Below the pieces are notes generated by a model. It was not told the DNA's origin, made no database searches, and worked only from the letters and a program-made list of their open reading frames with translations. This document shows positions 20,628 to 28,212 of a DNA stretch of 41,750 bases, in pieces. Made by a program: the position numbers and the translations under genes. The stretch lies in the IMG/VR virus record IMGVR_UViG_3300026510_000005, positions 1 through 41,750 of that record; one strand, written 5' to 3'. The stretch comes from a virus. The first letter of the stretch is position 1. The number at the start of each line of letters is the position of its first letter.

Positions 20628-20951
20628 TTAAATTATTTTAGATACAAATACTACAGTATCTTTTATCAAATCAGCATAGTCTTCACAAGCGTCATCTATA
20701 TCTTCTGTAACTATATCTTCTAGTAATATAAGACCATGTTCAGGTGTATATGTAAATGCTAACTCTTTATGTCTTTCCAATCTAGATAAAACATCTCTTG
20801 TTAAATCTACATCTAGGATATGCTTCTCGTTTAATTTATCAATCATATCTTTCTTACATTTAGTTTTACCTCTACTTAGTAACACTATAGATATACCTAT
20901 AGCAATAGCAACATTCTCTATCTTCTTATCTCTTAGTAAACTTGTTATCAT
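20628..20951 (-). CDS. Unknown 107-aa protein coupled to metalloprotease
   Basis: The ATG at 20951 overlaps the end of the metalloprotease gene by four bases, the usual ATGA coupling. Residues about 13-26 (NVAIAIGISIVLLS) form one short hydrophobic stretch that could be a weak membrane segment or a buried helix. The middle is basic with KTKCKKD and the C-terminus is acidic (VTEDIDDACEDYADL). Tight coupling suggests that it works with, or is a substrate of, the protease; that is inference. Confidence 0.55.
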   Translation of the reverse strand: MITSLLRDKKIENVAIAIGISIVLLSRGKTKCKKDMIDKLNEKHILDVDLTRDVLSRLERHKELAFTYTPEHGLILLEDIVTEDIDDACEDYADLIKDTVVFVSKII

Positions 20952-22258
20952 TTTAATCTTTCCTTTAAGTAATGTAAATCATTTTCACTTAATGTTTCTA
21001 AAGTATTATATAGTTTAGTAACATTAGCTGTCCCGTTAAAGTAGTTGTATATAGACTCTATTAAATAAGGTTGCGTCAATAATTTATCTAGGTACGCCTC
21101 TACTCTATCTATACTATCTAACACGCCCTCTATTTGTTCAGGAGGTATAAGTTTCTCTCTTAACCCACGTACCATGTTTCTCTTAATCTTATCTAGTCTA
21201 TCTTTAGCATCATCGTATGTAGTGTTATTAGAATCAGATGTTCCCATTAACAACGTTATGGCTGTTATAAGACCAGTAAGTACAACATCAAAGATTAAAG
21301 TTCCATGTACAGCTATGAGTATATGCAAAGGTATGAAAAAGAATAAGTATACTGTAGACATTATAGTATTGAATAAATCACTATTAGTGGTAAATGTTAA
21401 AGAACGTTTAGGGTCCACTGCCATCATCTTAGCTAGTGCTGATGCTAACGACTCACCATATCCAAATGATGTGGCAAAACTATCAGCTTGTCTTTCAGAG
21501 TCTGAGAAAGTATTCTTTATATAATCTATTTCTGACTTAATCTCTCTAGTTATAATCTTAACGCTATCTCTAGAAGTAAGGTCTACTTTAGACTTACCTA
21601 TTTTTAATGTAGTCTTGCTCTTATCACCACCTATCCATTTGGCTAAACTCTCTTCATGAGATATAGAATTCCCAGATATTTTATGCATATACATGATAGA
21701 TGTAAAACTATGACCTACCTCATGTAGTATTGCAGCCATTACTTCTCTAGGTGATAAGTTATACATACCTATTAAAGAGCTGAAGTCTAAGTACACCTTA
21801 GATATAGCTTTCTTCTTTAAACCATATATCTTAGCTTTCTTATAATCAATAGTGACACCAGTTACAAAAGACTTTCTTGTATTCTCTAAAACAGACAGGT
21901 AGCCTTTTAAGAAATCTCTTTGTTTTTTAGAGACGGAAACATCATTTTCATATTCCTCAGCTATCTTCTTATGCATAACGGTGTTTCTACTTATAGATGT
22001 ATTACCATCTATAGTTGTAGATATAGTACACGCCCCACAAGCTAGGTCGGTACCAAACTCTATATTAAGACCAAACCTTTTAGATAATACATCGGCTAGA
22101 GAATCTAACTTCTTCTTAGTAAAAGTAGACCTAGCGCTCTTTGCTATGTCACTACTACCTTTTAAGAAGACATGTATATCGTTATAGATATCAAATCCTT
22201 TCTCTAACTCTTTATCTTTTGTATTAAAATCTAATAGTTCTATATCAAAACCATCCAT
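20948..22258 (-). CDS. Membrane-anchored HExxH zinc metalloprotease (436 aa)
   Basis: Start ATG 22258 (MDGFDIELLD) has AAGGATG upstream; a longer frame to 22309 has no ribosome site. Residues 176-183 read AAILHEVGH, a classic HExxH zinc site with H179, E180 and H183. Seventy residues later SERQADSFA supplies E255 in the E-x-x-A-D context that gives the third zinc ligand in M48-like (gluzincin) peptidases. Residues about 299-340 are strongly hydrophobic and should form two membrane passes, placed after the catalytic domain. The last 90 residues are charged and helical. The family role, cutting membrane or nearby proteins, is known for M48-type enzymes; the phage substrate is unknown. CGAC near residues 74-77 could be a second metal or disulphide site. 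Virion processing and host-membrane modification are both possible. Confidence 0.7.
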   Translation of the reverse strand: MDGFDIELLDFNTKDKELEKGFDIYNDIHVFLKGSSDIAKSARSTFTKKKLDSLADVLSKRFGLNIEFGTDLACGACTISTTIDGNTSISRNTVMHKKIAEEYENDVSVSKKQRDFLKGYLSVLENTRKSFVTGVTIDYKKAKIYGLKKKAISKVYLDFSSLIGMYNLSPREVMAAILHEVGHSFTSIMYMHKISGNSISHEESLAKWIGGDKSKTTLKIGKSKVDLTSRDSVKIITREIKSEIDYIKNTFSDSERQADSFATSFGYGESLASALAKMMAVDPKRSLTFTTNSDLFNTIMSTVYLFFFIPLHILIAVHGTLIFDVVLTGLITAITLLMGTSDSNNTTYDDAKDRLDKIKRNMVRGLREKLIPPEQIEGVLDSIDRVEAYLDKLLTQPYLIESIYNYFNGTANVTKLYNTLETLSENDLHYLKERLK

Positions 22259-22306
22259 TGTAACATCCTTTTCTAGTAAAAATTTAATCATTAAAAAAAA
22301 ATAAGT

Positions 22307-22331
22307 CATATAGGAAACGAATTCCTATATG
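22307..22331 (-). terminator. Intrinsic terminator after repeat-rich gene
   Basis: CATATAGGAA pairs with TTCCTATATG around a five-base loop, and the minus-strand transcript then runs into a stretch of eight U residues. It ends the unit 22338-23743 just before the metalloprotease gene. Confidence 0.7.
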
Positions 22332-25908: not shown

Positions 25909-26334
25909 ATGTCTAAAGCAGATAAACGAGTAGCTAGAGAGAGAAAAAAGAAAGAGACGTCTAAAGAGAAAGAGTTTGAAAATATAAAAGCTGACATAGA
26001 GGAAGCTAGAAGTACTGTTACTTCTTCTATAAAAGCTAACTTAAGCGTTATAAAGAACGGTATAGATGCTGTAGAGGCTGATAGAAGTTCTGAAAACAAC
26101 TCAGTGTTATACGATATGCTAAAACGTAAAGAGACTATACTTACTAAAATGCTAGAAGGTGTTGGTGAGATTAACGTTAGTATAGAAAAGAGTATTGGTT
26201 CATTCATGGATGAAGACTCTTTAGAATGTGTTGTGGAGATAGGTGAGAATATAGGTAACTATAACATGCTGTTAAACGAGAATGTTAATGTTATGGAAGA
26301 GGTGTTTGATTTAATAGGGGGTAAAGATGATTAA
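25909..26334 (+). CDS. Charged helical 141-aa protein
   Basis: ATG 25909 has AAGGATGTAAC upstream. Residues 1-35 are very basic with alternating K/R/E (SKADKRVARERKKKETSKEK). The rest is helical with regularly spaced hydrophobic residues, so a coiled coil is likely. It begins a plus-strand unit and overlaps the next gene by eight bases (GATGATTAA). Its role is unknown; the coupling links it to the frameshifted pair. Confidence 0.55.
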   Translation: MSKADKRVARERKKKETSKEKEFENIKADIEEARSTVTSSIKANLSVIKNGIDAVEADRSSENNSVLYDMLKRKETILTKMLEGVGEINVSIEKSIGSFMDEDSLECVVEIGENIGNYNMLLNENVNVMEEVFDLIGGKDD

Positions 26335-27763
26335 ATTAACAAGTATAGCTAAGAAAGAGCTTATAGAGAAGATAGGTATATTACAACCTAACATTAAAGA
26401 TATAGATGATGGTTTAGCCAACTACTCTGATATATTAAAACGTATACTAGAAGACGAAGATACTTCTGTAGAGTTAGCGGAGAAAATTAGAGAGATAATG
26501 ATAGGTGATATAGTAGACCCTTTGAACGCTATACGTTTCCTTATCTCTGAAGGGCTATATAACAAAGAGACTAGTGAAGGTAAATTAGAAGAAGACTTTA
26601 AGATAAATGATGAAGAAGTAGGTATAAAATCTATTAAGATAAAAACATCTGGTAATCTAACAGGTTCTAATGCTGTTGAGTCAGCTAGAGCTTCTTTAGG
26701 TATACGTGAGAGTAAAAAGATTACTTTATTTACATCTGGTTTCTGGATAGCTATAGGTAATATAAGTAATATAGATATCATAGATTTTGAAAGACGTTTA
26801 ACAGAGATGTCTTTAGAAGTAAGAGAATCTATGTTAGGTTTAGAGTTTACATCAGATGTAAGTTTTTATACAGAGATCATTATGGACTTTGTAGAAGATC
26901 ATCTTATAGCTTCATCTTTAGATGTAGATAATGAAGAGATACGTAAATATATACTTATGGCTGATGTAGAGATGTTATACGGTGGAGTAATAGACGCTAT
27001 AAACCCTAGAGGTTTCACCAACTTCTTTAAATGCTCTAATGCGTTAACTGTAGTAGATAATACAGATGAGGAAGACGAGATAGGTGTAGCGGTCGGTGAG
27101 GTGTTAAAATGTGATGAAACATTTACAGCTAGGTTAAAAGCTACTAACTTACTTAAAGTAGCTAGTGATAAACTAAATAGTGAGCAAAGGTTAATATTAC
27201 TTGGTTCTAAGAACTCTACAGATATAGAGACATTAGCTAAATATAAAGAGAGTTTTAATATAGACGCTTCACCTATAACTATAGACGATGATGACATAAA
27301 GTTCTTTTTGATATTAAAAGATGCTAGTTTGTCCGATGTAGTACTAGCAGGTAAGTTCTGGAATGATAATATAGCTGAAGCTTTGAATAACTTATCTCTA
27401 GGTGATGATGATAAACTTAAGATAAATGCATATAAAAAATATTATACCGCTCAAGCACTAGCTATATATGCACCTTATATAGATAAGTTAATTCTATCTG
27501 ATGGTAGTGAGATAGATGATATGGGTAGTATCATAGGCGTACTAGCTGAGATAAGTGATAATGATGTATTATCTAAAGGTCTTTCGGAATACGTTAGTAA
27601 GTATATAGATAGTAGGATTATATCTATATATGCTGTACCTGAATTTACTTGTTCTAAATGTAATGAATCTTTCAGTAGTGAAGAAGCTAAAGAAGACTTT
27701 AAAGGTTTCATACCTATAAACTTGAGAAAGTATTTTTTTACACTTCTCACTCTCAGAGGGTAG
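26327..27763 (+). CDS. 478-aa protein with CxxC near end, upstream part of frameshift pair
   Basis: ATG 26327 overlaps the preceding stop. The protein is acidic and helical for most of its length. Near the C-terminus C442-S-K-C445 is followed by an acidic linker and INLRKYFF, a zinc-ribbon-like half site. Directly after Y-F-F the zero frame gives only TLLTLRG and a stop, while the -1 frame is open for another 157 residues. The two FF codons form a perfect slippery heptamer, T TTT TTT, at 27733-27739. This suggests that the 478-aa form is the termination product and that a 628-aa fusion is the second product. The CxxC plus a short aromatic end recalls T4 gp26-type baseplate hub assembly proteins, a weak inference. 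Confidence 0.65.
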   Translation: MIKLTSIAKKELIEKIGILQPNIKDIDDGLANYSDILKRILEDEDTSVELAEKIREIMIGDIVDPLNAIRFLISEGLYNKETSEGKLEEDFKINDEEVGIKSIKIKTSGNLTGSNAVESARASLGIRESKKITLFTSGFWIAIGNISNIDIIDFERRLTEMSLEVRESMLGLEFTSDVSFYTEIIMDFVEDHLIASSLDVDNEEIRKYILMADVEMLYGGVIDAINPRGFTNFFKCSNALTVVDNTDEEDEIGVAVGEVLKCDETFTARLKATNLLKVASDKLNSEQRLILLGSKNSTDIETLAKYKESFNIDASPITIDDDDIKFFLILKDASLSDVVLAGKFWNDNIAEALNNLSLGDDDKLKINAYKKYYTAQALAIYAPYIDKLILSDGSEIDDMGSIIGVLAEISDNDVLSKGLSEYVSKYIDSRIISIYAVPEFTCSKCNESFSSEEAKEDFKGFIPINLRKYFFTLLTLRG

Positions 27764-27781
27764 ATGGTACATCTAAAGTGT
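27733..27781 (+). promoter_or_regulatory. Candidate -1 ribosomal frameshift signal
   Basis: T TTT TTT at 27733-27739 has both TTT codons in the zero frame. Directly after it ACACTT (27740-27745) pairs with AAGTGT (27776-27781), enclosing an inner hairpin TAGATG-GTA-CATCTA (27761-27775). The spacer to the outer stem is zero, shorter than usual, so the exact stimulator is uncertain. A -1 shift at the second TTT continues as YTSHSQRVDGTSKVS into the next frame. A one-base sequencing loss in the T run would look the same. Confidence 0.5.
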
Positions 27782-28212
27782 CTACGTTAATATCTTACTT
27801 TGGTACTCGTGAAAACGCTACTAAAGATATCATGGATAATTTAACAGTAGACACTACTTTATCTACATCACTAGAGGGTGAGGAATATAAAAGATATATA
27901 TTATATAAAAGTACAGGAGTGGGTATTAACGATGAGATAGATGGTGATATAAAAGAGAAGCTATTTACATCTTTAGCTTACGAAGATTTATATAGTAATA
28001 AACCTAACAAGCTATATAATATTATAGAAGAGTATGCACAAGCAGGTATATTATCTCTATTCGGTATAAGTTTAGATAAGTTCTTAGAATTATCACATAT
28101 GGACTCTAAGATATTAGTAGAGTCTGCTATGCGTATGAATAAGGAAGCTACTGAGACTGAAGAAGATATGTTAAAGAAACTAAAACTAGGTAAGGATGGT
28201 AAAGATGGTTGA
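27778..28212 (+). CDS. Downstream (-1 frame) part of frameshifted protein
   Basis: The frame is -1 relative to the 478-aa gene and open from 27739 without a stop. The first possible start in it is GTG 27778, which has only a distant GAGGG and no good ribosome site. Residues from the GTG read (V)STLISYFGTRENATKDIMDN and continue as a helical domain (about 70-120: YAQAGILSLFGISLDKFLEL) ending in a lysine/glycine-rich tail. It is most easily explained as the C-terminal domain of a 628-aa fusion made by frameshifting, or as a gene separated from its N-terminus by a one-base error. Independent start from GTG is possible but poor. Confidence 0.55.
   Translation: MSTLISYFGTRENATKDIMDNLTVDTTLSTSLEGEEYKRYILYKSTGVGINDEIDGDIKEKLFTSLAYEDLYSNKPNKLYNIIEEYAQAGILSLFGISLDKFLELSHMDSKILVESAMRMNKEATETEEDMLKKLKLGKDGKDG

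Follow-up and report, generated by a model that had tools for sequence, protein, structure and literature searches.

The window, that is, the whole 41,750-base stretch of a virus record that was analysed, represents part of the genome of a phiKZ-like jumbo phage, as judged by protein matches: among its products there are counterparts of the phiKZ major capsid protein, of the phiKZ-type divergent DNA polymerase and DnaB-like helicase, of RNA polymerase subunits and of the phiKZ internal head proteins. No nucleotide similarity of the window to known phages was found, and searches of IMG/VR and genome contigs with the window's own proteins gave no close relatives, so that all comparisons were made with distant relatives. 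The gene pair considered here is accompanied by the following features (TAC, tail assembly chaperone; SD, ribosome site).

26327..27763, plus strand: upstream gene, frame 0, 478 aa, a gp77 homologue and proposed TAC-N (phrog_4585, tblastn, SD and fold)
27650..27661, plus strand: CxxC (C442, C445) before FF, a layout like that of T4 gp26 (CPECG...EFF), with the columns conserved in homologue alignments
27733..27739, plus strand: slippery heptamer T TTT TTT; its last base, 27739, closes the second Phe codon and is also the first base of TAC, with which the -1 frame resumes (from the letters; TTT TT(T/C) in 32/33 homologues)
27740..27763, plus strand: frame-0 tail TLLTLRG followed by TAG (27761-27763), a stretch read in both frames (from the letters)
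27739..28212, plus strand: -1 extension of 157 residues past Phe-Phe plus stop, proposed TAC-C (from the letters and an HMM of relatives)
27740..27781, plus strand: nested hairpin, ACACTT/AAGTGT enclosing TAGATG/CATCTA, present and unsupported as a stimulator (z = 0.06 against shuffles)
27778..27780, plus strand: GTG, the ORF-caller start of the second gene, judged not real (SD only -3.4 kcal/mol; relatives' starts inconsistent)

The upstream gene starts from an ATG preceded by a strong ribosome site (SD -9.9 kcal/mol). Its 478-aa product belongs to PHROG 4585 (E = 9e-43), the profile of which is also matched by all 24 homologues scanned and the function of which is listed as unknown in the database, and tblastn with this protein gave matches in 38 phiKZ-like phage records. 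The protein has divergent homologues in four laboratory phages: gp77 of phiKZ, gp074 of PhiPA3, gp136 of 201phi2-1 and HOV27_gp081 of Goslar. No Pfam match was obtained for the window protein or for any of 24 family members.

Frame 0 reads TAT TTT TTT ACA over the T-run, and from 27703 onwards the -1 frame meets no stop codon until 28210-28212. The original prediction had placed the end of the 478-aa frame seven residues past the run, with a -1 frame open over the junction for 157 residues to 28212 and a joint product of 628 aa, and had described an upstream product ending in CxxC and YFF; the coordinates were confirmed from the letters, and the end reads CSKCN...KYFFTLLTLRG. The predicted slip product thus consists of 471 + 157 = 628 aa (26327-27739 in frame 0, then 27739-28209 in the -1 frame), so that the short and long forms would have 471 residues in common and the long form 157 extra ones. 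A run of seven T's is ordinary in this AT-rich window, where 10 matches are found against 13.4 expected on both strands; the run alone is therefore not unusual and the case is decided by comparison with homologues. Elsewhere in the window, a run of nine A's (22293-22301; T9 on the minus strand) lies near the 5' end of a minus-strand ORF, 20948-22309.

The junction in distant relatives

Junctions were inspected first in 24 loci, of which annotated phage records supplied 23. IMG/VR loci were added next, a narrower alignment being used to search for them. Removal of sequences more than 85% identical left a non-redundant set of 33 homologues, whose identity to the window is typically about 20%. 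Every one of the 33 has its second gene in the -1 frame, and this frame stays open backwards past the end of the first gene; 151-178 residues follow the slip point. Phe-Phe is coded TTT TTT or TTT TTC at the slip point in 32 of the 33, and because the same codon pair is kept so widely the T-run is more than a chance occurrence. The full heptamer T TTT TT(T/C) is found in 26 of these 32, where 8.7 would be expected to carry T before the Phe pair, and in the remaining six the base ahead of TTTTTT is G or A. All 32 use TTT for the first of the two Phe residues, whereas codon usage would predict about 11, TTC being commoner in most of the genes. These codon-usage probabilities multiply to about 1e-17, a figure that is no formal probability, since the sequences share ancestry. 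Furthermore, several GC-rich phages keep the site; in one of them (L049) the gene pair elsewhere contains 0 TTT and 24 TTC codons. The slip site of this GC-rich type (L049-L051, around 4146) is a run of nine T's in a gene pair otherwise without TTT.

The sole homologue without Phe-Phe is pVa-21 (L026, around 3560), which has A CTT TTT A and a -1 frame open for 162 aa, and in which the single TTT codon may be where the slip happens. Slipping of two tRNAs would be imperfect in this phage and in the six homologues with G or A ahead of TTTTTT.

The coding capacity of the junction was also compared among close pairs of relatives. In the overlap read in both frames silent change is reduced (pS 0.18 against 0.56-0.61 outside), as is expected if both frames are used. 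The -1 frame gave pN/pS of 0.36 from the upstream stop to codon 55 and 0.25 in the core, and the substitution pattern indicates that it is under purifying selection ahead of the annotated starts. In addition, an HMM built from the -1 products of 32 relatives, with the slip motif removed, ranked the window's -1 ORF best (E = 3e-9), the next window ORF having an E value of 0.29. In PCH45 (L014), PhiEaH1 (L016), Moabite (L022) and FBKp24 (L025) the frame-0 tail past the slip is 37-44 residues long, so that the two frames overlap over a long distance in these phages.

Starts annotated for the second gene vary from 29 to 260 nt past the slip and include ATG, GTG, TTG and CTG (24 loci). The phiKZ -1 frame has no ATG, GTG or TTG within 75 codons of the slip, and what the phiKZ annotation gives as PHIKZ076.4 is an 80-aa fragment of the -1 frame that begins 260 nt past it. 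Among the 33 homologues the median SD energy is -5.8 kcal/mol for the upstream gene and -3.0 for the best -1 start, and some in-frame -1 start with an SD of -5 kcal/mol or better exists in nine.

RNA signals around the site were examined as well. Stems ACACTT/AAGTGT and TAGATG/CATCTA had been pointed out past the window's T-run; they exist, as one nested hairpin, while a stimulatory role finds no support, the folding energy being average for shuffled sequence. When the 60 nt past the slip were folded in the 33 loci, no structure was common to them or exceptionally stable (mean z -0.43), and no SD-like stimulator upstream of the slip was consistent among them. A stimulatory structure or an SD-like element is not required by all known phage frameshift sites.

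The probable frameshift and its alternatives

A -1 programmed ribosomal frameshift in the window gene pair is very probable from comparative sequence evidence, namely the conserved slip sequence, the constant relative frame, the open -1 frame, the selection on it and the inconsistent starts. This agrees with the original prediction of a probable programmed frameshift joining the two genes, and the relatives, which were to be checked for the site and the split, keep both. Most ribosomes would terminate at the stop of the 478-aa gene, yielding the short protein, and a minority, with tRNA-Phe on the T-run, would move back one base into the -1 frame and make the 628-aa protein, composed of the first 471 residues of the short form and an extra helical C-terminal domain. 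Re-pairing of tRNA-Phe one base back on the T-run is the simplest reading of the slip mechanism, and we infer that the slip itself takes place in vivo.

Another explanation is that the two are separate genes, the second being translated from its own start (GTG at 27778 in the window) through a ribosome site belonging to it or by coupling with the stop of the first gene. The records do annotate separate starts, and the nine homologues with a comparatively good SD could be read in this way; however, the place and codon of the start differ among relatives, phiKZ has none nearby, and the downstream ribosome sites are generally weaker than the upstream ones. The GTG had been called a poor start, and its -3.4 kcal/mol against -9.9 for the upstream ATG bears this out. 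A good independent start in relatives, named as a possible refutation, was looked for and none was consistent. Moreover, separate genes would need neither the -1 frame in 33/33 homologues nor a T-run at Phe codons, and the -1 frame shows conservation and purifying selection ahead of the starts in question, so this arrangement is very improbable. Still less credible is a sequencing or assembly error, with eight T's in the run and one continuous gene. T-runs are error-prone and the window is a single metagenomic record, but in 32 other independent loci, many of them from isolate genomes, the two frames stand in this relation at the identical position, and several of the sites have only six T's. 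The eighth T, which was also raised as a refutation, may be dismissed as practically negligible, as relatives keep exactly the same site.

Transcriptional slippage, in which a U is added or dropped on the T-run in some mRNAs, is a further alternative to ribosomal frameshifting. Polymerases can slip on runs of 7-9 T's, and phiKZ-like phages transcribe with RNA polymerases of their own. Many sites, however, contain only six T's (G/A TTTTTT A) or end in C (T TTT TT C), which makes slippage of this kind less likely, and the site pattern fits re-pairing of tRNA-Phe better. Slippage during transcription is thus considered quite unlikely, and the ribosomal frameshift is preferred.

Comparison with tail assembly chaperones

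The predicted frameshifted pair is likely to be the tail assembly chaperones (TAC-N/TAC-NC) of phiKZ-like phages, on the basis of the modelled fold and the layout of the protein end and slip site. TAC-N, the short form, would coat the tape measure protein, TAC-NC, present in few copies, would recruit tail tube subunits through its extra domain, and both forms would then leave the virion. The AlphaFold2 model of the upstream protein is of moderate quality (pTM 0.70). A Foldseek search with it against viral models ranked its own family first, followed by T4-type 'baseplate hub assembly' and 'baseplate hub subunit' proteins (E 2e-5 to 1e-3, probability 1.0, target TM 0.47-0.62), and actinophage TACs appeared only as weak fold matches. 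No significant fold match to the upstream protein was found in the PDB. The downstream model has low confidence over its first half, and the downstream domain matched only its own homologues in BFVD, and those weakly. In sequence, hhalign of the gp77 family against T4 gp26 (PF12322) gave weak values (P = 0.006 and 0.07), and none of 24 members reached the Pfam gathering score of PF12322. As this sequence-profile match is weak, the proposed chaperone role rests mainly on the predicted fold and the layout.

The upstream model contains two similar strand-helix modules (approximately 130-235 and 317-438), each followed by conserved cysteines. An internal duplication of the protein seemed plausible from the modelled secondary structure, but the profile comparison did not establish it, being not significant (P 0.03; best shuffled control 0.09).

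The T4 chaperone pair reportedly corresponds to genes 26 and 51. T4-like gp26 (TAC-N) and gp51 (TAC-NC), which fall into PF12322 (T4_baseplate), resemble the phiKZ-type proteins in the CxxC...FF end and in fold (E ~2e-5); the end of T4 gp26, CPECG...EFFELL, has the same layout as that of the window protein. The likeness extends to cyanophages such as S-RIM8: in T4-like cyanophage gp26 the FF lies within TTTTTTC, where a -1 slip would lead to a C-terminal extension, mostly of 61-70 aa (81/83 candidate ORFs, 80 loci). In S-RIM8 (L062, 2465-3181) and in loci L064-L143 gp26 ends on TTTTTTC one residue before the stop, and at the -1 extension the S-RIM8 annotation has only a short (~45-aa) 'baseplate hub assembly catalyst'. 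The phiKZ-type proteins differ from the T4-like TACs in size, with short forms of 476-705 aa against 208-239 and extensions of 151-178 aa against 61-70, and also in having no Pfam match and in adjoining RNA polymerase genes. According to papers citing Vladimirov, Gautam and Davidson (2022, Virology 566:9), poly-T slip signals occur in the TAC-N genes of T4-like phages, some of which have separate short and long TAC genes instead.

Frameshifted tail chaperones from other phages may be compared similarly. In lambda gpG/gpGT, studied by Xu, Hendrix and Duda, a low-level -1 frameshift near the 3' end gives two products, neither of which is in the virion (PMC5009743). This is like what is proposed for the phiKZ-type pair, in that one gene yields two products by a -1 frameshift near its 3' end, although the lambda proteins are much smaller, use another slippery site and have no sequence similarity that could be seen. 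The TAC gene of Vandenendeviridae and Andersonviridae has a GTTTTT slip site (PMC12846349) and shares with the phiKZ type the poly-T at the end of TAC-N, the -1 frame open in every genome and the mis-annotated second gene, whereas it is small and lies directly upstream of the tape measure gene. Leptospira phage LE4 has consecutive accessions, A0A343LED6 and A0A343LED7, that match weakly the upstream and the downstream model, respectively; possibly the same split is present in this phage outside the phiKZ-like group.

The gene neighbourhood is a point against the chaperone reading. In the window, phiKZ, PhiPA3, 201phi2-1 and Goslar the neighbours are RNA polymerase genes and small genes of unknown function, and no tape measure gene is annotated beside the gp77 homologue in these five records; T4 gene 26 likewise does not lie directly upstream of gene 29. 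A real frameshifted pair with another role is also to be considered, for instance a loading chaperone for the virion RNA polymerase encoded by the neighbours. The adjacent RNA polymerase beta-type subunit genes and the weak sequence link to T4 gp26 speak for such a role, but the fold search yields T4-type baseplate hub assembly proteins and not polymerase chaperones, and the C-terminal CxxC...FF layout and the slip site are common to T4-like gp26, so a role apart from the tail is improbable. The 201phi2-1 record carries a mass-spectrometry note on gp138 and gp139 and none on gp136, the gp77 homologue, which is a hint that fits a chaperone. The size of the upstream product, regarded in the original prediction as a reason to doubt a tail assembly chaperone, may be reconciled with that assignment, as the fold search and the T4-like control suggest an enlarged form.

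Taken jointly, a -1 programmed ribosomal frameshift that makes the TAC-N and TAC-NC of phiKZ-like phages, with an unusually large TAC-N, is the reading we favour, with a probability of roughly 0.8.

Meaning for the phiKZ-like phages

Frameshifted tail chaperones are already well known; what differs here is the size, the lack of a Pfam match, the place beside RNA polymerase genes and the unannotated frameshift. In the phiKZ-type records examined two separate proteins are annotated, and neither a frameshift nor chaperones are mentioned. No published frameshift in phiKZ-like phages was found in a literature search that covered few subscription journals. As virion RNA polymerase genes surround the gene, and the short and the long form each reach two to three times the ordinary size, one may speculate, though with little likelihood, that in nucleus-forming phiKZ-like phages the enlarged pair has a job beyond tail length control, such as linking the assembly of the tail and of the virion RNA polymerase.

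The tail chaperone reading provides a likely function for gp77, a core gene of the phiKZ family whose function has been unknown. It also revises the annotation of the adjacent gene, since in none of the homologues examined does this neighbour resemble a gene of its own. Furthermore, the persistence of the slip site in proteins that are about 20% identical links the tail assembly of jumbo phages with the chaperone system of T4-like phages.
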